Source: a virus. Taken from it: a stretch of DNA of 37,416 bases. A program made the position numbers and the translations under genes. Under the pieces are notes generated by a model, which made no database searches, was not told the origin of the DNA, and saw nothing but the letters and a program-made list of their open reading frames with translations. The stretch spans positions 1 to 37,416 of IMG/VR virus record IMGVR_UViG_3300021185_001151; one strand, 5' to 3'. Shown one piece after another: positions 9,501 through 29,814 of the stretch; the stretch's first letter is position 1, and the number at the start of each line of letters is the position of its first letter.

Positions 9501-9691
9501 TACATACAGACGCATATCTTTCAAGAACGGACTCTAACAATATTATCAATAATGACAGAACTGGTTATGCGGCTGCCAAACTGCGCCGTCAACGTGAAGG
9601 TTATATTGCTGGTTTAGAGGTTCGAATAAATAAGCTTGAAGACTGCGTAAACTGTTTGCAACAAACATTAGAAGAGATTAGAAACAAATGA
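9497..9691 (+). CDS. Small coiled-coil protein between two tail genes
   Basis: This is a 64-residue charged protein. Residues about 38-64 show heptad spacing of hydrophobic residues (LEVRINKLEDCV then CLQQTLEEIRNK), which predicts a short coiled coil and therefore an oligomer. It contains a Cys-x-x-Cys pair (DCVNC). The start overlaps the stop of the DUF4815 gene as ATGA, and its own stop overlaps the next start as ATGA, so it is translationally coupled on both sides. I do not recognise a family. Possible roles are a fibre trimerisation or assembly factor, or a small structural connector. It is unlikely to be a chance ORF because both junctions are perfect four-base overlaps. Confidence 0.7.
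   Translation: MIHTDAYLSRTDSNNIINNDRTGYAAAKLRRQREGYIAGLEVRINKLEDCVNCLQQTLEEIRNK
9625..9632 (+). promoter_or_regulatory. Possible late promoter, AATAAATA
   Basis: One mismatch to TATAAATA at the first base, 55 bases before the S74 fibre start and inside the preceding gene. Confidence 0.4.
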
Positions 9692-11007
9692 GTGAAAATT
9701 TAGATCCAATCGTAACTACAGGAACCTTTGGCACCTGGATTACTCGTACAAACGAAATCATAACTGAGTTGCAAACTACAGTTCAGCTAGGCGGTAGTGC
9801 AACGAATGCTTCGGGTAATCTATACATCAACGGTGATATAAGTTCATCTGCTAATTTGAACGTAGACGTAATCAACAAACTAGATAGTGGATTATCGGCA
9901 ATCACTTTCGATGCTGGTCTTACCGCTGACGGTGATATCACAACAACTGGTGTTCTTGTATTGGGCAGTGGTAGTACAGGTAGCCCATCTTCTATTCAAC
10001 TAAGAGACGGTACAACTAACACTTGGTCGATTGAAACTACTACGTCACACAATGAGATTGATATCAAGAAGGGCTCAAAGTATCTGAGAATCGATACAGG
10101 CAACTCAGAGATTACTGGTAACGGTCTTACTATCTCAAGCACAATCTTACCCGATAGTGGTAGCATTTCAGAAGGCACTAATAAGTACTTTACAGATTCA
10201 CGTGCAGTAACAGCAATTGCAAACGCAATCAAAGATGGTAGTGATCTAACATACGATGCAGAAGGTAACGGCAAGTTTGATATTGCTGTGCCTGATGTTC
10301 CTGTCTATCGTGGGACAGCAAACGAAGTTGATGTTGATGCGGATCCAAACAATGTCGGCGATTACATTATCAGTCTTGCACAAGGACTAACGACTACAGA
10401 CGATGTTCAATTCGGTGACGTTACTGCAAATGATATCATACTCAATGAATCCAAAACTGGCACTAATGGTGTTGCTTACATCAAAGGTGCAAATAGTGGA
10501 AGTAGTCCACAGATACAGCTTTGGTCAAAACTTGATGGTGAGACCGCACTGAAGGCTCTAACTATTGCGGGTACTGGACACACAACAGTAGAAAATAATT
10601 TATATGTCTCTGGCAAATCTTATTTAGGTGACGATATAAGTGTAAGAGACGGCGCTAATACTACTATTTCATTTGATGCTTCAGCGGGTTCTATTGTTGC
10701 AGAAGGCGATATTACTGCATTCGGTAGCGCATCTGAAAGACACCTAAAAGAAAACATCGAAGTTATTCCAAATGCGCTAGAGAAAGTCTCAGCGATTACG
10801 GGTTACACATTCAACTACCTCGGTAATGAAGAAAGACTGTCTGGTGTCATCGTAGATGAGATTGAGCCAGTACTACCTGAAGTAGTTTACACAGCTAATA
10901 AACAATCTCGCACTAAAGCTGTAAGATACGGAAATATAGTTCCTCTACTTATCGAAGCAATAAAAGAATTGCAGGCGCAAGTAGAAGAGTTGAAAGAAAA
11001 AAGATAA
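9688..11007 (+). CDS. Short tail fibre with C-terminal S74 intramolecular chaperone domain
   Basis: This is a 439-residue protein. Its N-terminal 340 residues are beta-rich and repeat-like (for example LYINGDISSSANLNVDVINK). The C-terminal 90 residues match the peptidase S74 / intramolecular chaperone of endosialidase family: SERHLKENIEVIPNALEKV at residue 349 onward, then YTFNYLG, LSGVIVDEIEPVLPEVV, the conserved VRYGNIVPLLIEAIKELQ, and a terminal coiled coil. In this family the chaperone drives trimer folding and then cleaves itself off just before the Ser of the S-[DE]-x-x-x-K motif; here that is Ser349 with Lys354. The mature fibre would then be about 348 residues. The gene starts in an ATGA overlap, and AATAAATA at 9625-9632 may be a late promoter. 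Most likely it is a homotrimeric fibre or spike on the baseplate. Confidence 0.85.
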   Translation: MSENLDPIVTTGTFGTWITRTNEIITELQTTVQLGGSATNASGNLYINGDISSSANLNVDVINKLDSGLSAITFDAGLTADGDITTTGVLVLGSGSTGSPSSIQLRDGTTNTWSIETTTSHNEIDIKKGSKYLRIDTGNSEITGNGLTISSTILPDSGSISEGTNKYFTDSRAVTAIANAIKDGSDLTYDAEGNGKFDIAVPDVPVYRGTANEVDVDADPNNVGDYIISLAQGLTTTDDVQFGDVTANDIILNESKTGTNGVAYIKGANSGSSPQIQLWSKLDGETALKALTIAGTGHTTVENNLYVSGKSYLGDDISVRDGANTTISFDASAGSIVAEGDITAFGSASERHLKENIEVIPNALEKVSAITGYTFNYLGNEERLSGVIVDEIEPVLPEVVYTANKQSRTKAVRYGNIVPLLIEAIKELQAQVEELKEKR

Positions 11008-11042: not shown

Positions 11043-14000
11043 ATGCCTATTACCATTACTGATCTAAATCCAATCATTGCACCGGTCGATGCCGATATTT
11101 TGGTTTTGGATGACGTATCCGAAGGTACTACGAAACACATTACCTTCCTCAACCTGAAGAATTCTATTCTTAGTCAGGCAGCATTTGACTCGAATGCATC
11201 CGAACTTGTAACAGCATTGAATGCATACGATGACGGTACAGGATCTAACGGACTAAAATCGACTACGCTCTGGTATGGTAACGCATACAGAGAAGGCTCA
11301 TACTTTCTAAATTACACTAACTTTAGTAACAAGCCTACAATCCCAACTAACTTAGACAATCTAACAAATGATAGCGGATTCGTCAAGCTTCTTGATGCTA
11401 CAGTGGATCTACCTCCTCGTTTAGCGTATGTAGACAACTCGGGCGTTGGTGATCCAACAACGAATCCAATCTCTACAAATAACGTACCAGAAGCAATTGG
11501 TTCTTTGTACTACACCGATGATCGTGTAGAAGCTTTCTTAGACGCAAACTTCGCTACTTACTACAATGCTTTCTCATCTACATTTGATCAAGGTAATGTA
11601 CGAGACAGTCTGATTGGTGTAACTGCTACGGTTACAGATACCAACTTAGACTCAGGTGACTATCAAGGTCGTATTCTAAGAATTTCAGATTCGACTATTC
11701 ACAACAACTACTCTGTTGGTCAGACCGTAAGAGTTTATGGTGCTGATTTAGAAGGAAGTGTGCTATCAGCAACCAACGCTTCACTACAGACTGTAAGAGT
11801 GGGTTTTGCTACTTCTGCCACAGACACTACAAATCATCAAAAAGATTTTGCTTATCGTATTGCAGAGTTCAACTATACAACAGGTCAAATTGCACCAGCT
11901 GGCGTTATTCGTGCATTGACCATTGCTACGCCTACACAGCTTTTGAATAGCGTATCGAACACATACGAAGCATTCAACACAGACAACTTTATTCGCCTAA
12001 CAATTAGTGGAGTTACTGCTGGTAATGGCGTTCTAGTTTATCGTAGAACTCCAGAGACAAGCGACCAATTTATTCTATGTGCAGTCTTAGGACCTAAAGA
12101 GGTATCTGAAGGCACATTCATCGACTATTATGCATTTGACTGGGTACCTTGGTCTGGTAGAATAGAAGCAGATAACACATATCCTACAGATGTCATTCAC
12201 TTCCCACGTATAGCGCCTGGCACATCTAAGCGTGGATGGGTAGACATGACCATTCAAGCAAAAACTGTGACCGGCAATAATATGGATCTGACTTTGAATG
12301 ATGTTGTCTTTATTTCATCTGATCAACAGACTGTCTCACTTGCACACAATGACACCTCTGCTATCACACAAGCGATATCTACAAACTCAGCAATTGATAG
12401 AAAGTCTGTAGTACTGAACGCAAAGACATACGTATCATCCCTAATCTCTCTTCCGAATAACTTTGGACTAGTCGGTACTCCTTACATCACTAAGATCACA
12501 AAGTTACCTTGGTCTGGTGGTGAAGCGGGCACATCTTCTGCTAAGATGATCAAAACACAGATTGCAACTGGTGCTACTAACGTATCTCTAGTTGGAGTGG
12601 ATTTAGAAGGTAGTGCTATCAACCAATTCAGATTCCCAGATACAACTGATGACACACGTAACTATACAGTAGACTTTGGTGTACAACCAGATGGACCTCT
12701 CATCGATAAAGTACGTATTAGAAACGTAATCGGTGGTGGTATCTATGCAGATAGACCAATCGATCTACGTGTAGCCGCATCTGAAGTTCTGAATAGTGGC
12801 GTAGATGATAGACTAGCATACTCACCTATCTTTGCATACGGTGGACAGAAGACACAAATCACTGCAAACAAATTCGAAAACTTTGGTGAAGGTCTAGATG
12901 TATCCAACACCGATAAAGGTATTGTATCAGATAACTTACTGAATAACATTGGATCCGGTCTTATAGTATATGGATCTAAGTTCTTCATCTCTTCACAGAA
13001 CGTGTTGATTGGACCAGCGGGAGAGTTCTTGCCAACTCCAGATACTCTCAACTCTGAGTTTGATATGCTAAACATCGATCTCACAGCTAAATACTTAGCG
13101 ACAGCGCAGTTTGATAGTGACGTTCACGTGTATCAAGAAAACGGATTAGTATATGACCTAACACAAACAGACGGAACTATTAGCAACATTTCATATGAAG
13201 CATACTACGTAGAGAAGTTGCCTAATGGTGGCGAACAGTTCTGGACTCCAGCAAACGCTTCTACGATCACATTCAGCCCTAGATCAGTTGTACCAGCAGA
13301 TGGTCAATTTGCATTTACCATTCCTTACGCTGATGTTGCAGATATCAAAGAAAGAACTGGTAGCAACTCTTACACATCCCTAACTCAGAATACGGTTCTT
13401 TGGGATAACGTTGCGACTGACATAACAGTGATCGTCAACGGTGGATCATTAGATTCAGACTTGACATCTTTCTTGACTCAGAGTCTAGGAGGTAATGCAA
13501 GAGCAGACGTGACTGATAATGGCGTAATCGAAGCAAGTGATGCTACGGCAGTTACTGCATACGGTCTTGGCGGATCTACAAGAGCGGCTTTGCCTGCTGA
13601 TCAAATTTATAGAATAAGAAGATTTTTAGAAGAGGCACTTTTGGATGATGCCTCGCTTGCAACACCAACTTTGAATTCAGATGTTCTTGCGAGATATGTA
13701 AACTTAGGTAATCCAAATCACCAAGGTATTGTGTATAGAGCATCTTATGAACACGAAGTATCTGCAGGTAACGTAGCAACAGTGGTAGTACCATCTGAAG
13801 CGAATGGACTTGACCCAGACTTCTTGAATAGTTCAGGATATTATCACATTACCGTAACTGGGGTACTACCCTATCTATCGATGGGAGCAGGGGTTACATT
13901 AGCTGACCACGGCTCATCTGTTGATGGTCAACGTGGTACAATTACTAATTTAGTCACTAGCGGATCTGGTGCGGGTAGCACTACAAATATTTCTATCAGG

Positions 14001-17100: not shown

Positions 17101-17942
17101 AAAATATTACTGTTGTTTGGGCAAGTGGTACCACTTGTGAACTATCTGGACCACTGACTGATCAGACTAACATCACATTGATTCCTGATCGTGCCGCATC
17201 AGTATTCGGTATCGAAACTAAGAGAGAAATCCTTAGCACAGTTGATTCGAATGCTGTACGTAATCGTGTACAGGTATATCCAACAAAACTGTCCACATCT
17301 AATCTGAGTACATCAAGACCTGTTCGTCTAAGAATGAAGAAGACTCCAATCTTCCAGACAGACGTGACACCATCAGGAACATTGACAATCAATGCTTCTT
17401 ATGATATCACTTCAGAGAACTTGCCGTTGCCAGTAACAGAAAGTGCGACTTATTTGCAGAACGATGAGACTGTATATGGATGGCTACAAGCACTAGTGGG
17501 TGTGAATGAGATATCAGCATTTGGTAGACTGTATAAAGAGTCTGGTTCATACTACTTCGAACTGCTTGAATCATACAATGGCACAGTAACACTGAAGTCA
17601 AGTGAAAACTTCTTAGCAGATGGCGTATTCACTGCACAAGGTCTAACAGGCTCAAGTAACGTAGGCACAAAATCTTCTATTGAAAAAGAAGGATTGAGTT
17701 CTGTTACTATCGCCACAAATAATCAAGTTCCTATTCCTGGAACAGGTATAAATATAGCTACGTTATATCTGCAACAAGGAACTGAGCAAATCGATCTTTC
17801 AGCGTACTTTGACTATAATAAAGAATATTTGTCTTTCCCGCTGACCGATGTCGCTGACACACTGTATTTTGCAGTAGACACCGATTCAGCTTCTAGTAAC
17901 TCAGATGACGTTAGCTTAGGTTGCACATGGGAAGAACAGTAA
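14115..17942 (+). CDS. Large virion structural protein, paralogue A of a tandem pair
   Basis: This 1275-residue protein is shared in style with marine T4-like phages: early RSIPVVLASDQAAVPVEEQ, then SEVALSLLGIPRAEVALGIF at about residue 55 and FFRYQPGRVSAATFGVKS at about 125. A second conserved block at about 834-940 contains MLKIEFSWYGAVGALFLAYV, NGEARWVRVHHL and KYGASYYIDGGDRGTVRLY. These blocks recur in the next gene, so the two are paralogues. Unique to this copy is an inserted helical region (about residues 250-560) with an internal duplication, CKRD...GGNAHVIYN (residues 289-334) and CQRD...GGNAETVYN (435-478). A TATAAATA late promoter lies 44 bases before the ATG, and GGAAGG supplies a ribosome site. 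The function is unknown; a baseplate-rim or fibre structural role is likely from position. Confidence 0.8.
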   Translation: MSSITNINNNSAVVNVGRTTPVSPGQQPASRSIPVVLASDQAAVPVEEQNKVQSEVALSLLGIPRAEVALGIFADVNTYDVNPTEWSKSPQAYVDGHGVKHLPTEAGALVEAPRNKSAVLTSKRFFRYQPGRVSAATFGVKSTVSQKNFSQNPVVRKFGIYDNFDGYFWETRNNGKGDNFSVVRRTQSLLNAPTSPFGSSGQVLRGSNVNSSTDILDIAQLDDYRIIGKAATAPVVSPDYKKKDRKVVQEARFTIANAALAAAASGYGTSGTDSNGRTYYEALAFLIHGSSFTPDQVATITAKCKRDVDYWLDFILLDMEWGGNAHVIYNTYNFRGQDNTGTNRSILPDSNTFEKPVYDSLKVQIDNLGLTDDEAGTLALVDQIIAYYATAQSDPVYSSANLGSKTKIDTLYDVKAHYWGYWAAKAISYDMTLVPSGFTEADIKFKCQRDTKYLVDGYKNDIVGGGNAETVYNASMYMKASGLSIYSQLDGSGQPIEVTRQTALKAEILHTLTEFGYSSSDSVYTRQSTLADLIIGNFTVESTEKLVVGNRGFAGNLVCLRDGLLMTHAAAFDTSLLKTAESIVTVTEADNVFRLSKGIVTFGQHVRHVSGISELTNGQVYKIVKVIGPKGNEFTLQEEDGTAVTVAASQSGFFETVVPFIFPTDYDPEHYAGDGASSRAVKPNSAVLADVSKDADPFVQGMTFPLMYSSNDNLRDDSDGVFKIGYINTASSDLETDSQLVTRYRTQIDDVNFIPEYINWIKNNVKPEFWGVYEYRIPRSRFSHDKLDGITGGTRVYSDRATGEGGQVNPGEIVTDADDNAVDADSEYNFDFSKVTMLKIEFSWYGAVGALFLAYVPIGNGEARWVRVHHLRASNQLKIASLGNATLPITYTTYGGGDQYSLGDGEDANTPVGANYSTTSHNIVKYGASYYIDGGDRGTVRLYSHNNDQLVSAFGKQFTASGYSASGGTVTVTTPNSIPAVFFMGAKVSTNNATDQNITVVWASGTTCELSGPLTDQTNITLIPDRAASVFGIETKREILSTVDSNAVRNRVQVYPTKLSTSNLSTSRPVRLRMKKTPIFQTDVTPSGTLTINASYDITSENLPLPVTESATYLQNDETVYGWLQALVGVNEISAFGRLYKESGSYYFELLESYNGTVTLKSSENFLADGVFTAQGLTGSSNVGTKSSIEKEGLSSVTIATNNQVPIPGTGINIATLYLQQGTEQIDLSAYFDYNKEYLSFPLTDVADTLYFAVDTDSASSNSDDVSLGCTWEEQ
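17747..17754 (+). promoter_or_regulatory. Possible late promoter far upstream of paralogue B
   Basis: An exact TATAAATA 191 bases before the ATG at 17946. The distance is longer than for the others, so chance occurrence is possible. Confidence 0.4.
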
Positions 17943-17945
17943 GTC

Positions 17946-20900
17946 ATGCCAAAACAGATAAAGATTGGTTACGATAAGGTACCATCTCCAGTAACGACCC
18001 AATTTCCACAGCTTGTGGACATTCAAGGCTCAAGATTATTTGATGCCGCTGGTAACCCTCTGCGAACTCAAGAGCCGGGGTTTCTTGACGCATTCAATAA
18101 TGCAGAGAACTCTTTATCTCTTGTAGCAAACAACGTCGGCAAGAAAGAAGCTATACCTGTCGTAGAGCAATTTCCCGATTCATCTGAAGTATCTCTTAGT
18201 CTATTAGGTATACCAAGGGCTGAAGAACAACTCAGCCTTTTTTCTGATGTTGCTGTTTATGGACTAGACGAAGAGAACTGGAACTTTTACACATATGATT
18301 CTAACTGGAACTATCCGTTTGGATGGTACTACAGAAATAATCCTACGTTCGGTCAAAGAGGTAGCCCAGAGTTCGTTGAAGAATCAACTGAGCAAGCACT
18401 CTATCTAAAAACTTTTCCCGTACCGTACACATATCCATTCGGCCCTAAATGGACAAATGATACGCCCTCTTCTAATATGAAAGCGTACATGAACTTCATT
18501 GCAGTCGGACAATATTTGTATAATCAGTACATCAACTTTGAGCCTAGATTTGCTAAAGATAACTTTATTGGTCCAGAGATCACTCTCAAGGATCTGACTT
18601 ATAGTGACATCACTATATCAGCAAATGATTTTATAGCTAACGGTGAATTCTCTCAAATGAATGGTTCTGGTAGTTACTATGACGTGTTTTATGGAGACGA
18701 TGAAGCGGCTTCATACGATCAGATCGAAAGATGGACACTGTTCTGGAAAAAGATTACTACTGATGTTGCACAGTTTCCTCTGAATCAAGACGGAACTTCT
18801 AGATACGAAACTACAAGAGAGTATAGGGATCTAAGAACATTTTTGATCAATGAGAGTAGACCTGGCAACAGTACTACGGCTGAACGATTTGGTATTTTAG
18901 AAAGTAAGAGATCATTCAGATATCAGCCTGGTCGTGTATCTGGTTTCACATATGGTATTCGAATGAATACTGATCCATCATCACTCGCTAACTTTGTAGA
19001 GTGGGGTGCGTCTAACAGCACAGATGAATATATGTTTCAGTTGCGTGGCATCGAACTGAACATTGTACGTAGAAGTACGATTCCTTTACCTGTATCACTA
19101 CTAGAGAGAATGGGTCTGACGGCAGACGATCAGAAGCAAGTTTATCCCGTATCACTTGATAGTGAAAATCAGCTATGGGAAACTATCATCCCGAGAAGTA
19201 AGTGGACTGGTGACGCACTGGACGGCGGTGGTGCAAGCAGATACTCGCTAAATCTCAAGAACGTTACTATGTTCAAGATCGAATTCTCATGGTACGGTGC
19301 CATCGGCGCTAAGTTCTATGCGTACATTCCAACTGGTAATGGAGATTGTCGTTGGGTACTTATGCACACACTCGTTATTGAGAATGGCCTAGAAGAGCCG
19401 ATTCTACAAAACCCAGATTTCAAATTCAAGTATTTGCTCTATAGTGCAGATACTACAAACATGAATGAACCCGTATACGTTTATAAGTATGGGTCATCTT
19501 ACTATATTGATGGTGGTGATGAAGGCACATTACGTCTCACTTCTAATAGTGGTGACACAAAGTCATTCACCACTGGCAATGCTGTTATGGGTATCTTGCC
19601 TAAGAATAGTATTCTAAACAGCGAAGGTATACCAGTAGATAACAACCGTAAAACATATCCTAGTACAGTATCAGTCAATTCAAGCGCAGATGTTCGTATT
19701 GATTTAGAAGAGATAACAGGATCACCTGACGGAATACATTACGTGTATTCATCTTCTCTATCTAAAGGTACCGGCGATACTAGTGAAACGTTGACGCTGA
19801 AGTTCAGCGAAGACGGATCCTCACTAGCAAAATCTGATGATTCGGCATTTACTGCTAGCCAGCTAGATGCTAAAATAATTGCGAATGGTGTCTACAACAT
19901 CTTTACTAGCCCAACAGATGATGCAACAGTTGCACAAGTACAACGCAGAAACGATTCATTCGGTCTTTCTAATGGATCGATTGGTGAAGAGACTAGAAAA
20001 TATGACGGCACAACATTTACTCCTAGAGATGGAACATCTACATTCTCTGGTAGACTGTCGAAATATTCTATCGCAGCCTCTACAACTGGCATCTATGCTA
20101 ACGAGTTCAAAATTCATTGGCTGAATCCAAACAGTAGAGATACCTCTCAAGAAAAAGCAGAGTATTACATTGGTCTTTCATACGAAGCGCCAGGGTTCGA
20201 TGCTAATGGCGATCTAAAATTTGGTACGCTTGAAGAAGACTACGACATCGATAAAGTCATGCATGTTGAGTGGTGTGACAGTTCAGTTATATTTGATACG
20301 ATCAATAGAGAATCAAGTTCAGCAGAAGGCGGCGCAGGTGGTTCAAGACTTCAAACAGATTTTAGACTAGAGCGACCATTTGGAGATAGATCAGGTAATA
20401 TATCTGCTATCAAAGGTTTTGTCGATATTCAAAACTTCCCAATTGAGACTACAGTAGTCAATAACGGCGACGGAACATTTAGACTCAACTTTACTGGCGG
20501 CTTGACTCCGCCAATTGATCCTCGGGATGTGGGTGTCGCTGAAGTAGGAATCAATAGAGTAGTTGCCACTAAAGCAGATGGCGTTACTCCAGTGAAGTAT
20601 ACATCTATAGTTCAATACGATAATGCCGCACAGAAATATTATGTCAATATTGACTTTGACATCTCTGTTGGAGGTACTGTAAACGTAACCCATATTCAAT
20701 CTAAGACACTGAAGCTTCAAGACGATTGGCAGTTGAACTCATTTACTCAGAGTGGTGGGGCTAGATTTACTGAGAAGAAATTTACTATTCAACGTGCATT
20801 ACGATTCAACATTCAGCCACTATACTTGATAGTGGGACTACGTGATAATGCAAACGTAAATAACATTATTATTGAAGAGATTACTCCTGAGACGATAAGC

Positions 20901-23733: not shown

Positions 23734-24681
23734 ATGGCACAAGGTTATGTAAAATCACTCAACTTGTTAGAAAGTGACTCAGCATCAGATGCTGGTATAC
23801 TTGAGAACATTGGTGGTGCCGGTATTGTTGCAGACATGCAATTGCTCTCTGGTAACTTATCAAGAGTAAGTACAGTACCCGCATCGGCTTATACGACAAG
23901 TGGAAATAAAATTACGATGACTGGTGATGGATATGTTGCCTTTGCAAATCGTAATGTTGTAACTCACGCTGGAACAAAATACACAGTAACGGCTTCAGAC
24001 GGAGAGTTAGAATTCGAATTACGTGACTCACTTGGCAATCCATTCGTACCCACAGGTACACTCACTCGTTCAGATGCCATCAGCAATCCAAACTTAGAAA
24101 ACATGGATGTCGAAAGACTTATTGCAGTTAGAGATAGTAGTTCTGGTGTTTCTGGCGGCGGAGATATCGATACAGAAACAGGAATATATAACCTCAGAAG
24201 CATTTCATCTAATATCGACTTGATTGAAGAAGGTCTGGGAATCTACGCTTATAAGAAGAGTCGTATTCCCCTCACCTATAAAGATTCAGAGTTTAGAAAA
24301 AGAATCACATTCAACGGCAACATTAGAATCACAAACGACAGTCTTGTCAATGTTGGCGATGCTGGCGCACCTGGTCTATTCATTCAAGGACCATCAGGCA
24401 CTGCCGTAAGAGCGTTTTCAGATGTATCTAATCCTTGGTCAAAAGAAGGTACAGGAAATGGCGGTACAACATCACGTATCGAAACTACTGCCAGCAAATC
24501 ATCTGTGTATGAACTTGTACTGAATGAGCCTAACTTTGCTGTACCAGGATCACTGCTACAGTCAGAGAGTGGTAATGCGAGTGATGACTATACACACAAA
24601 ATGAAAGTGTCTGTGAAGAGTGGATCAGATAGTGATACCAACTCTTCTTACGAGACGTTCTTTATTCTACTAAAAGCCTAA
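23734..24681 (+). CDS. Virion structural protein of unknown function, 315 residues
   Basis: The protein starts MAQGYVKSLNLLESDSASDA and continues with IVADMQLLSGNLS, a segment that resembles the N-termini of the leucine-rich-repeat protein upstream and the reverse-strand protein downstream. The rest is beta-rich with glycine and serine loops, and includes IDTETGIYNLRSISSNIDLIEEGLGIYAYKK split over two strands. No catalytic motif or membrane segment is visible. GGGGAG precedes the ATG by a few bases, giving one of the better ribosome sites in the window. Its TAA stop directly abuts the stop of the convergent gene. A structural or fibre-associated role is inferred from position and the shared N-terminus. 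Confidence 0.65.
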   Translation: MAQGYVKSLNLLESDSASDAGILENIGGAGIVADMQLLSGNLSRVSTVPASAYTTSGNKITMTGDGYVAFANRNVVTHAGTKYTVTASDGELEFELRDSLGNPFVPTGTLTRSDAISNPNLENMDVERLIAVRDSSSGVSGGGDIDTETGIYNLRSISSNIDLIEEGLGIYAYKKSRIPLTYKDSEFRKRITFNGNIRITNDSLVNVGDAGAPGLFIQGPSGTAVRAFSDVSNPWSKEGTGNGGTTSRIETTASKSSVYELVLNEPNFAVPGSLLQSESGNASDDYTHKMKVSVKSGSDSDTNSSYETFFILLKA

Positions 24682-26955
24682 TTACTGAATCAGCATCTTA
24701 TAGTTAGTACCGTTATACTCTAACGTTAGATACTCGCTATAAGCCATGTTTGTATTGGTAGTTGCTGTAGTATTATTTACCTTCAACTCAGTAAACGCTA
24801 CATCATTGAATTCAATATTCGGATAGTTTGTGATAGTGGCAAGACCTTCTGGTGTACCAGCAAATGGTGGAGCAGTATTCAGTGGTAACACACAACCCTC
24901 AAATGCATACGAAGAACCTTCTCTAACATAAGCACTGTTGGGAACAAATACGATTGTAGCACCTGGTTCAATAGTACCATTCGCAAGACCAGATAATTCT
25001 ATAGTGTTAGCGCCTGTATTCACGTCATAAATTGTCAAGCCCGCTGGAATCTGTACAGGTGATGAAGAGCCTGTGAGATAGTAAGCATACATGTTGGGTG
25101 AAGTTACTAATCCATTTGTATCTGTTAGTGTAAGAGTAGTTCTACCACCAGAGTTTGTACTTGAAGCAGTTACTTCTTTACCAAATACACCTTCGCACTG
25201 TACTTCAGACGATGAGTCAACTAGACCGAATGATGCACATACTACGACTATTTCTGTGCCACTATATGCTTCTGCACCAGCTTCGCCTTCACCATGAACA
25301 GGTTCTGTAGTAATTTCGCCACTAGAAAGGTTGACAATTCGCTTGAACTTTGTCATACTACTAGAACAAGCAAGCATGTCGAGTTTCACTTCAGACACAG
25401 CTGGTCCATTTGTCATAGCACTCAAAGTTGTCTGATCAGCATCAACAGATACGCCTTTATAAACGCCAATAACTCCTAAATGATCGATGATTGATACTGA
25501 AACTGTACCACCAGTGTTTAGGTTCATTGCTGTAGCAAAACCAGAATAGTTCACAAAGATAGCGTCTGGTCTGTTATATGATCCGTCACCATCAATGATT
25601 TGTTCTACCTGATAGCAAACATATGTTGCACCGTTGTTAGCAACTACCCAGTCGCCAACAGAGATGTTGCTGATATCTCCTTCTAGTTTGCCTAGTCCAC
25701 TATACGTAAACGTTCTGCCTGTCACCTTGACTTTATCTGTAGTGTTTACAGGAGGGTCGTACTGAATAGCAATAGTATTTGATGTGGATAAAACAGCAGT
25801 GGAACGTTGTGCATTAGGTCCAGCCTTGTTCTTATTGAAGTGTTCGAATGTACCTACTACGGGTGTTTGACCACGTGTGTAAGACTTGTAGACATAAGAG
25901 AATGGATATCTCTCACTATCTATATCATAGAACTCAAAGTTCTTGAATGGTAATCTGTCGCTGTCACCACGATCTTGCCACCACACAGTGAGACGAATCC
26001 TGAACATATCTCCTGTATAAGTCTGTCTGAGTCTGATTTCTTCTGATAGCGTCTCGACCTCTGACTGTTGCATTTTGAATGCTACAGTTCCACCGCTGGC
26101 ACTAATATTACTTGTAGTTCCATCAAGTGTGAGATGGTGTACACCAGCACCTCCCGCATCTCGTTCTATTTTAGAAACTACAACGTGAGTTGTATTATCA
26201 GAACCCAATACATACTGACCAGTAGTAACGTACTTCAAATTTGCTTCGTCTACGCTCACGATGGTCGTAGTGCCGTCATCTGATACAAAATTATAATCTA
26301 CATCGATTGATTCAGCGTAGATAGATTTGACTATTTCATAGCCAGTTCCTAAAGGATCATACTCAATAATATATTTACCAGTCGAGCCGATATTGAACGT
26401 TGTTAGGTTAGTGTAGCCTTCCCACTGTATTCCTCCATAAGTATCTATGAACGTGTCGTTGACTTTTAGACCTAATCGCCAATTACCGTTATCCCAAAAG
26501 TCTACTGGGCCAATAACATCTGCGCCACTAATATCAAGAACATCTGCACCCGTAGAAGTTTCGTCTATAGAACTCGCTGATGTGACATGATTAGATGGTA
26601 CGAACCAAGCTGAACCTCCATCACCACCATTGATAAATGGGGGAGTGCCAGTAATAGTCTTATAGTTTTCGATTCTGTCTACAAGTCTGATGAGGGGCAC
26701 AGTCGGAAGTGGATTATTTGGGTCATTCACAGGACTATAAGTAGTTAGTATATTATCATTGCCAACCTGAATGAGATCAGATTGATCGACTTCAGTGTTA
26801 CGTAACCCAGAAACAACCAGTAAGTCGCCTGGAGCAAAACCGGTATCATCTGTTTTGATGCCGTCTAGAGTGTTAGCTAAAGCGACTTGCTTATTATCTA
26901 GATCAGCGAGATTTTTGTCGGCTCTGAGTCCAAACTTTTGATATTTATTTGCCAT
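24682..26955 (-). CDS. Reverse-strand virion structural protein, 757 residues
   Basis: This is the only convincing gene on the minus strand. The N-terminus MANKYQKFGLRADKNLADLD followed by NKQVALANTL and DLLVVSGLRN is a pattern I associate with structural proteins of marine T4-like phages, and it resembles the N-termini of the genes at 21256 and 23734. The remainder is beta-rich; features include GDMFRIRLTVWWQDRG, FEFYDIDSERYPFSYVYKSY and a C-terminal YLTLEYNGTNYKMLIQ. Transcription would start at the minus-strand TATAAATA reading 27008 to 27001, 45 bases before the ATG, with a weak GGA ribosome site. Its stop abuts the stop of the convergent plus-strand gene with no gap. A fibre or adhesin role is inferred. 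No flanking inverted repeats were found that would indicate an invertible segment. Confidence 0.8.
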   Translation of the reverse strand: MANKYQKFGLRADKNLADLDNKQVALANTLDGIKTDDTGFAPGDLLVVSGLRNTEVDQSDLIQVGNDNILTTYSPVNDPNNPLPTVPLIRLVDRIENYKTITGTPPFINGGDGGSAWFVPSNHVTSASSIDETSTGADVLDISGADVIGPVDFWDNGNWRLGLKVNDTFIDTYGGIQWEGYTNLTTFNIGSTGKYIIEYDPLGTGYEIVKSIYAESIDVDYNFVSDDGTTTIVSVDEANLKYVTTGQYVLGSDNTTHVVVSKIERDAGGAGVHHLTLDGTTSNISASGGTVAFKMQQSEVETLSEEIRLRQTYTGDMFRIRLTVWWQDRGDSDRLPFKNFEFYDIDSERYPFSYVYKSYTRGQTPVVGTFEHFNKNKAGPNAQRSTAVLSTSNTIAIQYDPPVNTTDKVKVTGRTFTYSGLGKLEGDISNISVGDWVVANNGATYVCYQVEQIIDGDGSYNRPDAIFVNYSGFATAMNLNTGGTVSVSIIDHLGVIGVYKGVSVDADQTTLSAMTNGPAVSEVKLDMLACSSSMTKFKRIVNLSSGEITTEPVHGEGEAGAEAYSGTEIVVVCASFGLVDSSSEVQCEGVFGKEVTASSTNSGGRTTLTLTDTNGLVTSPNMYAYYLTGSSSPVQIPAGLTIYDVNTGANTIELSGLANGTIEPGATIVFVPNSAYVREGSSYAFEGCVLPLNTAPPFAGTPEGLATITNYPNIEFNDVAFTELKVNNTTATTNTNMAYSEYLTLEYNGTNYKMLIQ

Positions 26956-27000
26956 GTTTTATCCGTTCCAAAGTTGTAGGGAAATCTGTGTAGTCTAGAG

Positions 27001-27008
27001 TATTTATA
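27001..27008 (-). promoter_or_regulatory. T4-type late promoter for the reverse-strand gene
   Basis: The minus strand reads TATAAATA, the exact T4 late promoter octamer, ending 45 bases from the ATG of the 757-residue gene. It overlaps the plus-strand octamer at 27005-27012. Confidence 0.75.
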
Positions 27009-27012
27009 AATA
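27005..27012 (+). promoter_or_regulatory. T4-type late promoter for the fibre cassette
   Basis: An exact TATAAATA lies 27 bases before the ATG at 27040. A GGAG ribosome site at 27029-27032 follows. This is the only true intergenic promoter region between divergent genes in the window. Confidence 0.8.
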
Positions 27013-27039
27013 GAGATAGTAGATAAGTGGAGAAAAATA

Positions 27040-27372
27040 ATGGCAATCAAAGCTAATTTGGTTCTAGAGCAAGGTGTAGAATTTTCTGCACTCATAGATG
27101 TGACAGACAACTCAAACAACCCGTTCAACTTGACAGGATATACAGTAGACTCCCAAATGAGGAAGAACTATATGTCAACAAGTGCTATTACATTTGTAGG
27201 TGGGCATAACGGAGTATTGGGTCAAATAAATCTAACATTAGATAACACCGTTACAAATGATATTGAGCCAGGCCGTTATATGTATGATGTTGAGATCACT
27301 TCAGCAGGCGGTGGTAAAACCCGTGTTGTGGAAGGGATTGTAACAGTAACCCCAGGAATTACAAGAGTGTAA
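27040..27372 (+). CDS. Small beta-sandwich structural protein, fibre-cassette adaptor
   Basis: This 110-residue protein starts MAIKANLVLEQGVEFSALID and contains FNLTGYTVDSQMRKNY and IEPGRYMYDVEITSAGG, ending VVEGIVTVTPGITRV. This strand pattern is common in small virion proteins of marine T4-like phages, and it resembles the N-terminal domain of lactococcal BppU baseplate proteins (an immunoglobulin-like fold). It is the first gene after the bidirectional late promoter and is followed one base later by a 72-residue gene. It may connect fibres to the baseplate; that role is inferred from resemblance and position only. Confidence 0.75.
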   Translation: MAIKANLVLEQGVEFSALIDVTDNSNNPFNLTGYTVDSQMRKNYMSTSAITFVGGHNGVLGQINLTLDNTVTNDIEPGRYMYDVEITSAGGGKTRVVEGIVTVTPGITRV

Positions 27373-27373
27373 A

Positions 27374-27592
27374 ATGGCTAATATCAAAGCAAAGGTCACA
27401 CCACAGAATAAACTTCTGGTGACAAATTATCAAATCAATGCTTCCACTATCAAGTTGGGAGATTTGTTCGATGTTGACGGCACCGGCCAAACTGATGGCG
27501 CTGTTATCTTGTACAACGGTACAGATAATAAGTGGGAAGCCACAACACAAATGGACAATATAAATACAGTTATTAACGGAGGCAATTTCTAA
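27374..27592 (+). CDS. Small fibre-cassette protein, 72 residues
   Basis: The sequence contains IKLGDLFDVDGTGQTDGAVI followed by LYNGTDNKWEATTQMDN. This L-x-D-L-x-D-V-D ... G ... Y/W-N ... K-W-E module occurs both alone and inside N-termini of tail fibres of marine T4-like phages. The gene starts one base after its neighbour's stop, and its own TAA overlaps the next ATG. A late promoter for the next gene sits inside its last 35 bases. It is probably a small structural or adaptor protein; its exact function is unknown. Confidence 0.7.
   Translation: MANIKAKVTPQNKLLVTNYQINASTIKLGDLFDVDGTGQTDGAVILYNGTDNKWEATTQMDNINTVINGGNF
27559..27566 (+). promoter_or_regulatory. T4-type late promoter inside the preceding gene
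   Basis: An exact TATAAATA lies 25 bases before the ATG at 27592. A strong GGAGG ribosome site at 27578-27582 lies between them, so the predicted leader is about 20 bases. Confidence 0.75.
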
Positions 27593-29814
27593 TGTCAATC
27601 ATCAAGATCAAACGATCAGGTTCCACAGGTGCACCGTCTGCTCTCGCTCAAGGTGAGTTCGGATATTCGTATCTGGGTGGAACACTCTCGAATGGCGGTG
27701 ACAGACTCTATATCGGTACAGGCATCGAAACGAACGGTGCGGCTGCGAATGTAGAGGTCATCGGCGGTTCATATTTCACAGATAAACTAGATCACACTCT
27801 TGGTACGCTCACAGCGTCCAGTGCAGTACTAGTAGACTCTAACAGCAAAATAGATCAATTCCTCGTTGATGATCTAAAATTAGACGGATCAACTCTGTCT
27901 GTCAACTCAACGAGTTTAGCAAATACTAACCTAACAATTGAAGCTGGCTCGACTGGCGAAATCATCTTAGCATCTAATACTCGTTTCTCGGGTACAGTTG
28001 ATTTTGATGGTAGCGTAACAGTAGCAAGTTTGAATGTCGAAGACCTAACTGACAATAGAATCACTATTGCTGGCGCTAGTGGCGAACTAGAAGATGATGG
28101 TAACTTTACGTTTGACGGTACAACATTCACTGTTGGTGCCGCAACAATCGCACAAGCAACTGGTAACTTTGAAACAGATGGCACAATTGGTGCAGACGGT
28201 AATGTTAGAGTTGGCTCATCAGGCGCTTCTAACTTTACGATAGACGCAACAAATGGTGATATAGGTACGGCAGGCGATCTTACTGTTGGCGTTGATGCAA
28301 CGTTTGGCGCTACAAGTCAACTAGCATTTGCAAGTGCAAACAGTACTGTTACACTAACTGGTGATCTAGATATCACTGGTAGTGCTAGTATTGATAATAT
28401 CGATATCAACGGAAACACAATCAGTTCTACTGATACTAACGGAAATATCACACTTACTCCTAATGGTACTGGCTATGTCCAAATCTCTGGCACTAACGGA
28501 TTAGTAGTACCAGTAGGAACAACTGGACAACAAGGACCAGCAGTCAATGGTGCTGTTCGACTGAACTCTACAAGTGGTCAGTTCGAAGGTTACTCAAATT
28601 CTAACTGGTCATCTTTGGGTGGCGTAAGATCAGTTGATGGTCTAACGTTCATTATCGCAGAGACATCTCCAGGCAACTCAGACGATACTCTACATTTTCA
28701 CGTAGCAACAGGTGCAACAACTAACAAAGAGGCAATGACTCTAGATGAGACTAGCCTTCATGTTCTAAACACAACCGCATCGTCTAACACTACAACTGGT
28801 TCTATCATCGCTGATGGCGGGGTAGGTATCGCAGGTGACGTAAACATTGGTGGAGATACAATTCTCACCGGTGATCTAGCAGTCAATGGTGGTGATATCA
28901 CTACTTCACAGGCTACTTTCAACCTGATCAATGCTACTACAACTACGTTGAACATTGGTGGGGCAGCTACGGCAGTCAACATCGGTACTGGCGGTGAAGG
29001 TGGTGGTACAACTACTATCGGTCATGATATTGAAATTACTGGTGACCTAAGTGTAAACAGCGGACAATTCTCTGTAGACGCTACAACAGGTAATGCTGAA
29101 ACTGCTGGTAATATGATCGTCGGTGGTGATCTAACCGTAAATGGTGCAACTACAACTATTGACGTATCTACGCTAACTGTTGAAGACGCACTTATCAGAC
29201 TAGCATCTGGCAACACATCTGGTGATGCTGTAGACATTGGTTTTGTAGGTAACTACAACGATGGTACTGACACTCATCTTGCTGGTATGTTCAGAGATGC
29301 AACGACTGGTGAATTCCACATCTTTGATGAGTATGTTGACTCAGACGTTACAGACAACGTAATCGATATTTCGGATGCTACGTTCAGTCTCGCAGACGTA
29401 AACATCAACAAACTGAAAACTGCTAACCAAACAATCACACTGAGTGGCGATGTTGCTGGTACAGTAACTATCACTGAGTTTGGTGGTGGAACAACTGCAT
29501 CAATTACTACTACTATACAACCAGACTCTGTTGCTCTAGGCACTGATACTACAGGCGACTACGTTCAAGAAGTTGACGAAGGCGCAAACGTAACTGGCGC
29601 AACTGCGGGTGGCAATGCACAAACATCTATCTATGTTACTGGTACTGGCGAATCGGCTGTTGTTACAGTTCAAGCAGTTATTGCTGATCAAGTAGGACAA
29701 GTTGGTGTCGCAACATTTGATGCCTTATCAAATGGAGCTGGAACAAATAGAAACTTTGATGTGAGTGCAACTGGTAGTGTCTCTATCAACACCATTGATG
29801 GTGGAACGTACTAA
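27592..29814 (+). CDS. Tail fibre protein with Mtd-like N-terminus, 740 residues
   Basis: The N-terminus (IIKIKRSGSTGAPSALAQGE, then GDRLYIGTG) matches the major tropism determinant N-terminal style, a small domain that attaches fibres to the baseplate. The body is a long series of beta-repeats in the pattern N/D-G-T-I-x-x-x-D, for example NITLTPNGTGYVQISGTNG. Near residues 305-345 is a fibre module GQQGPAVNGAVRLNSTSGQF followed by EGYSNSNWSSLGGV. Around 510-530 is the module GDLTVNGATTTIDVSTLTVE, also present in two later fibres. These are stem-type repeats that normally form trimers. A late promoter and a GGAGG site precede the start. Host recognition or stem function is inferred. Confidence 0.8.
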   Translation: MSIIKIKRSGSTGAPSALAQGEFGYSYLGGTLSNGGDRLYIGTGIETNGAAANVEVIGGSYFTDKLDHTLGTLTASSAVLVDSNSKIDQFLVDDLKLDGSTLSVNSTSLANTNLTIEAGSTGEIILASNTRFSGTVDFDGSVTVASLNVEDLTDNRITIAGASGELEDDGNFTFDGTTFTVGAATIAQATGNFETDGTIGADGNVRVGSSGASNFTIDATNGDIGTAGDLTVGVDATFGATSQLAFASANSTVTLTGDLDITGSASIDNIDINGNTISSTDTNGNITLTPNGTGYVQISGTNGLVVPVGTTGQQGPAVNGAVRLNSTSGQFEGYSNSNWSSLGGVRSVDGLTFIIAETSPGNSDDTLHFHVATGATTNKEAMTLDETSLHVLNTTASSNTTTGSIIADGGVGIAGDVNIGGDTILTGDLAVNGGDITTSQATFNLINATTTTLNIGGAATAVNIGTGGEGGGTTTIGHDIEITGDLSVNSGQFSVDATTGNAETAGNMIVGGDLTVNGATTTIDVSTLTVEDALIRLASGNTSGDAVDIGFVGNYNDGTDTHLAGMFRDATTGEFHIFDEYVDSDVTDNVIDISDATFSLADVNINKLKTANQTITLSGDVAGTVTITEFGGGTTASITTTIQPDSVALGTDTTGDYVQEVDEGANVTGATAGGNAQTSIYVTGTGESAVVTVQAVIADQVGQVGVATFDALSNGAGTNRNFDVSATGSVSINTIDGGTY

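Follow-up and report, generated by a model that had tools for sequence, protein, structure and literature searches.

A 12-bp palindrome as a probable bidirectional late promoter in an uncultivated marine T4-like phage

Genomic context of the palindrome

The DNA analysed here (henceforth the window, i.e., the whole 37,416-base record) comes from a marine T4-like myophage and represents its baseplate and fibre region; baseplate wedge proteins and a fibre-assembly gene were found in it. The gene order resembles that of Pelagibacter phage HTVC008M (Kyanoviridae), while comparison of the region with cultured phages at the DNA level returned two short, unrelated fibre matches only. The source is an uncultivated marine T4-like phage, and the closest cultured relatives of the T4-type phage carrying the palindrome described below are Kyanoviridae. 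The record is a 37-kb fragment from which both gp55 and gp45 are absent; its two largest palindrome-bearing near relatives (131 and 144 kb) encode homologues of gp55 (47% identity to gp55 of HTVC008M) and of gp45 (38%).

Among the plausible long ORFs a single one lies on the minus strand (24682-26955), and together with the plus-strand gene at 27040-27372 it forms the sole divergent pair of the window, as the initial annotation had stated. The reverse gene encodes a 757-aa protein (N-terminus KYQKFGLRADKNLADL) of no known family: PHROGs, Pfam, NCBIfam and 50,697 phage records yielded no match. All members of its own family found here, which share a conserved N-terminus (KYxKFGLRADKNLADL), come from uncultivated viral contigs. 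The AlphaFold model of the protein was beta-rich and of low confidence (pLDDT 59), its Foldseek matches were not meaningful (TM-scores of about 0.1), and on this modelling the product can be said only to appear beta-rich and virion-like. The predicted late promoter (see below) and the fibre neighbourhood suggest that it is a virion protein. At its distal end the reverse gene meets a convergent gene stop-to-stop at 24681/24682; an intrinsic terminator was looked for at this junction and none was found, and late transcripts from the two convergent genes may run into each other.

On the plus strand, the fibre cassette opens with a 110-aa gene annotated as 'L-shaped tail fiber protein assembly' (27040-27372; phrog_1084 and phrog_3304). 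It is followed by a 72-aa gene (27374-27592; phrog_13853) and by a gene for a virion structural or fibre-like protein of 740 aa (27592-29814), which has an octamer of its own at 27559.

Overlapping octamers in the divergent intergenic region

The 84-bp region between the divergent genes (26956-27039) holds a perfect 12-bp palindrome, TATTTATAAATA (27001-27012, both strands), made of two back-to-back copies of the octamer TATAAATA. The palindrome is its own reverse complement and its octamers overlap by four bases, exactly as first annotated. Both are exact matches, one on the plus strand (27005-27012) and one on the minus strand (27001-27008), and the TATA at 27005-27008 is part of each, meaning that the same -10 DNA is read on both strands. 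We found a single copy of TATTTATAAATA in the record; the expected number in the window is 0.007 (first-order) or 0.009 (third-order Markov), on which a chance origin was rejected, and the expectation for the 84-bp gap alone is about 1.4e-5 (Markov).

Because the octamer of T4-type late promoters occupies positions -13 to -6 (PMC1524935), the predicted starts are 27018 on the plus strand and 26995 on the minus strand, 23 bp apart. The initial annotation had put them near 27019 and 26994, one base further out on each side. The forward octamer begins 35 nt before the ATG of the fibre-assembly gene, the reverse octamer lies 53 nt from the start codon of the reverse gene, and the predicted leader of the latter runs for about 40 nt to the ATG at 26955.

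Octamers of this kind are enriched across the window, with 8 copies of TATAAATA vs. 2.6 expected from shuffled sequences (1 of 100 shuffles reached as high a number). Six of the eight lie 15-70 nt ahead of a gene start, a zone that takes up 1.4% of the record (p of about 2e-10, for a distance range picked after the distances had been seen). This placement argues that TATAAATA behaves as a T4-type late promoter. The octamers at 1679-1686 and 17747-17754 fall within genes and not near a start, the one at 17747 being 199 nt upstream of a gene at 17946. We also observed two variant octamers, AATAAATA at 9625 (63 nt upstream of the gene at 9688) and GATAAATA at 11003 (40 nt upstream of the gene at 11043), both of which are possible candidates for late promoters of the form NATAAATA. 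For T4 itself, the authors of a review have cautioned that not every listed late site is proven to be active in vivo (PMC2988020).

Conservation of the palindrome among relatives

Relatives of the 110-aa fibre-assembly protein were pulled from viral contigs using protein patterns, blind to the promoter, and removal of near-duplicates left 43 distinct loci in which the upstream gene is co-directional. The octamer position before the orthologous gene was kept in nearly all of them, with a forward NATAAATA in 41 of the 43 and a forward TATAAATA in 36, and a reverse octamer was found in none (0/43). Within this fibre-assembly set, palindromes were confined to a single lineage (L008-L010), where the fibre-assembly gene is preceded by a divergent homologue of the reverse gene of the window. 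Four distinct loci in which the fibre-assembly gene faces a different divergent gene had no palindrome (0/4). In L040 and L042, where the divergent partner is a different reverse gene of roughly 200 aa with no Pfam match, two separate late octamers lie 29 bp apart instead of overlapping (upstream of 4001), and overlap is therefore not obligatory.

Relatives of the reverse protein were retrieved using patterns in its N-terminus, a search that is likewise independent of the promoter. The absence of the palindrome from relatives with the same gene order had been named beforehand as a finding that would speak against the proposed promoter pair; all 12 loci in which a homologue of the reverse gene is divergent to the fibre-assembly gene keep the perfect 12-mer. 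Since some of these loci are close relatives, the count amounts to five independent flank groups. The reverse protein of the window shares 30-35% identity with that of L008 and 25-34% with those of the others, and identity across the 20+20 flanking bases is 25-50% from one flank group to another, while the palindrome is 100% identical. In 4 loci where the reverse homologue is not divergent to the fibre-assembly gene, the 200 bases preceding the homologue contained no palindrome. The palindrome is strictly linked to divergent gene order, and is conserved while its surroundings diverge.

Recurrence at other divergent gene pairs

The genome of T4 (AF158101) contains exactly one copy of TATTTATAAATA (116450-116461), which sits between the divergent late genes 26 and 51, themselves 50 bp apart; thus the arrangement is not unusual among T4-like phages. 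Among gp51 relatives in viral contigs, 9 of 10 keep the 12-mer, and the tenth (L318) has one base changed in the reverse octamer. We did not find the T4 site described as a shared promoter in the literature searched, although the older literature may contain such a description.

More widely, viral contigs yielded at least 120 stretches in which the 12-mer is flanked by CTCC and GGAG, the cores of ribosome sites. When 80 loci of the 12-mer were read, 45 (26 distinct) had a start codon, a ribosome site and an ORF on both sides, compared with 11 of 80 for a control palindrome of identical dinucleotide make-up that occurred in 84 stretches in all (Fisher p = 2e-8). An octamer pair of the same pattern spaced by 4 bp was found in 7 stretches, 5 of which represent one locus. 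The viral-contig counts, together with the T4 and gp51 copies, indicate that overlapping back-to-back late promoters are recurrent. Given that divergent gene pairs unrelated to one another carry these same 12 bp, we consider overlapping two-way late promoters a design that recurs and is selected in T4-like phages, and not a curiosity.

At another divergent gene pair we observed a nested cluster, TATAAATATTTATAAATA, which comprises two forward octamers and one reverse octamer and lies near a further reverse octamer (L221, 1122-1250; L223, 1340-1470; L224, 2229-2360; L225, 1252-1380).

A probable symmetric promoter and its possible workings

The best explanation of these observations, to which we assign a probability of about 0.85 on the sequence evidence, is that the 12 bp form a symmetric bidirectional late promoter of a T4-type phage. 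The overlapping, divergent late promoters first proposed for this site thus appear strongly supported, both by the genomic context and by the comparison with relatives. Within these 12 bp, the phage-modified RNA polymerase carrying gp55 would recognise TATAAATA on either strand and start transcription either near 27018, into the fibre cassette, or near 26995, into the reverse gene. With contacts at -13 to -6, positions -13 to -10 of one promoter would coincide with positions -10 to -13 of the other, and the open complexes would melt the DNA on opposite sides of the dyad, one side per direction. From this geometry the polymerase footprints should overlap almost fully, and so a genome copy would accommodate one polymerase at a time. 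That two polymerases could not occupy the site together, as was originally argued, seems sound on steric grounds, and mutually exclusive binding has been stated for bidirectional promoters of E. coli (PMC12825309). The shared TATA core would tie the promoters together, such that mutating it would damage both. Across the many replicating genomes of a cell, both genes would be made late as a co-regulated pair, and the palindrome may split output between them.

It is also conceivable that both promoters work without meaningful competition and that their overlap reflects sequence economy (12 vs. 16 fixed bases in a short gap), which is a variant of the bidirectional late promoter and not exclusive of it; we find this plausible while leaning slightly against it. 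Late in infection each cell contains many genome copies, which speaks for this variant, as does the occurrence of separate divergent late promoters in relatives. The behaviour of bidirectional promoters in E. coli bears on both sides: there is no competition at basal activity, and it appears only when transcription rises to high levels (PMC12825309). Clamp-activated late promoters are strong, which speaks against the variant. The predominance of the overlapped form over the 4-bp-spaced pair likewise argues against mere economy, although a site with 12 fixed bases instead of 16 also evolves more readily and is matched more often by chance.

We judge it improbable that only the forward octamer works and that the reverse octamer is a by-product of the self-complementary TATA in an AT-rich region. 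While the symmetry of TATA supplies 4 of the 8 reverse positions for free, leaving a TATT with a chance of about 0.7% by base composition, the reverse octamer is missing from every one of the 43 co-directional relatives with the same forward promoter and present in all divergent loci with the reverse-gene family of the window; in the window itself, no other octamer lies ahead of the reverse gene. It is highly improbable that, instead of being a promoter pair, the dyad is an operator bound by a symmetric regulator or forms a cruciform or RNA hairpin: the perfection and strong conservation of the palindrome would suit an operator, but co-directional loci keep the octamer and lose the dyad (an operator predicts the opposite), conservation covers only the 12 bp needed by two octamers, the flanks in the window do not extend the symmetry (G/G at 27000/27013), and the RNA folds of both leaders were no stronger than those of shuffles.

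Other roles of the palindrome were also considered. A terminator or RNA hairpin was unsupported by the searches and the leader folds, and a sigma-70 promoter was rejected, as a search for a sigma-70 promoter-like match on the palindrome found none.

The activator of T4 late transcription is the gp45 sliding clamp, which is oriented according to the strand that carries the 3' end. Given that perfectly symmetric promoter DNA provides no direction of its own, the clamp might set it: the orientation of the clamp would determine the strand that fires, and the palindrome would read the polarity of forks or nicks, with each passing clamp firing one gene. We raise this idea tentatively and consider it rather doubtful; if true, a direction set by the clamp would be new and testable. 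Its perfect symmetry makes the palindrome a clean natural probe of polymerase orientation at a clamp-activated promoter, and the copy between T4 genes 26 and 51 makes the question of orientation testable at once in a laboratory phage and with purified proteins.

Comparison with known promoter classes

Ordinary T4-type late promoters (TATAAATA, served by gp55/gp33/gp45) resemble the site in the window in having an exact octamer and no -35 element and in lying near the starts of structural genes; unlike that site, they are one-directional. The bidirectional promoters of bacteria described by Warman, Grainger and colleagues share a symmetric -10 element and are defined by divergent starts 7-25 bp apart (PMC10268837), a range that includes the 23 bp predicted here. 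These bacterial promoters, however, depend on sigma-70 and TATAAT, and their starts are most commonly 18 bp apart, whereas the site in the window would rely on gp55 as the late sigma and on a longer octamer with a 4-base overlap, with starts about 23 bp apart and both RNAs predicted to be mRNAs.

A close counterpart is the T4 26/51 site, which shares with the window an identical 12-mer in a single genome copy, divergent late structural genes separated by a short gap, and ribosome sites on either side of the 12-mer. The gene pairs differ: in T4 they are the baseplate hub genes 26 and 51, while in the window a gene for a beta-rich protein without a known family is paired with a fibre-assembly gene. 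They are separate occurrences of the 12-mer, at gene pairs with no relation to each other, and the palindrome in the window is a well-supported new example of a kind already known.
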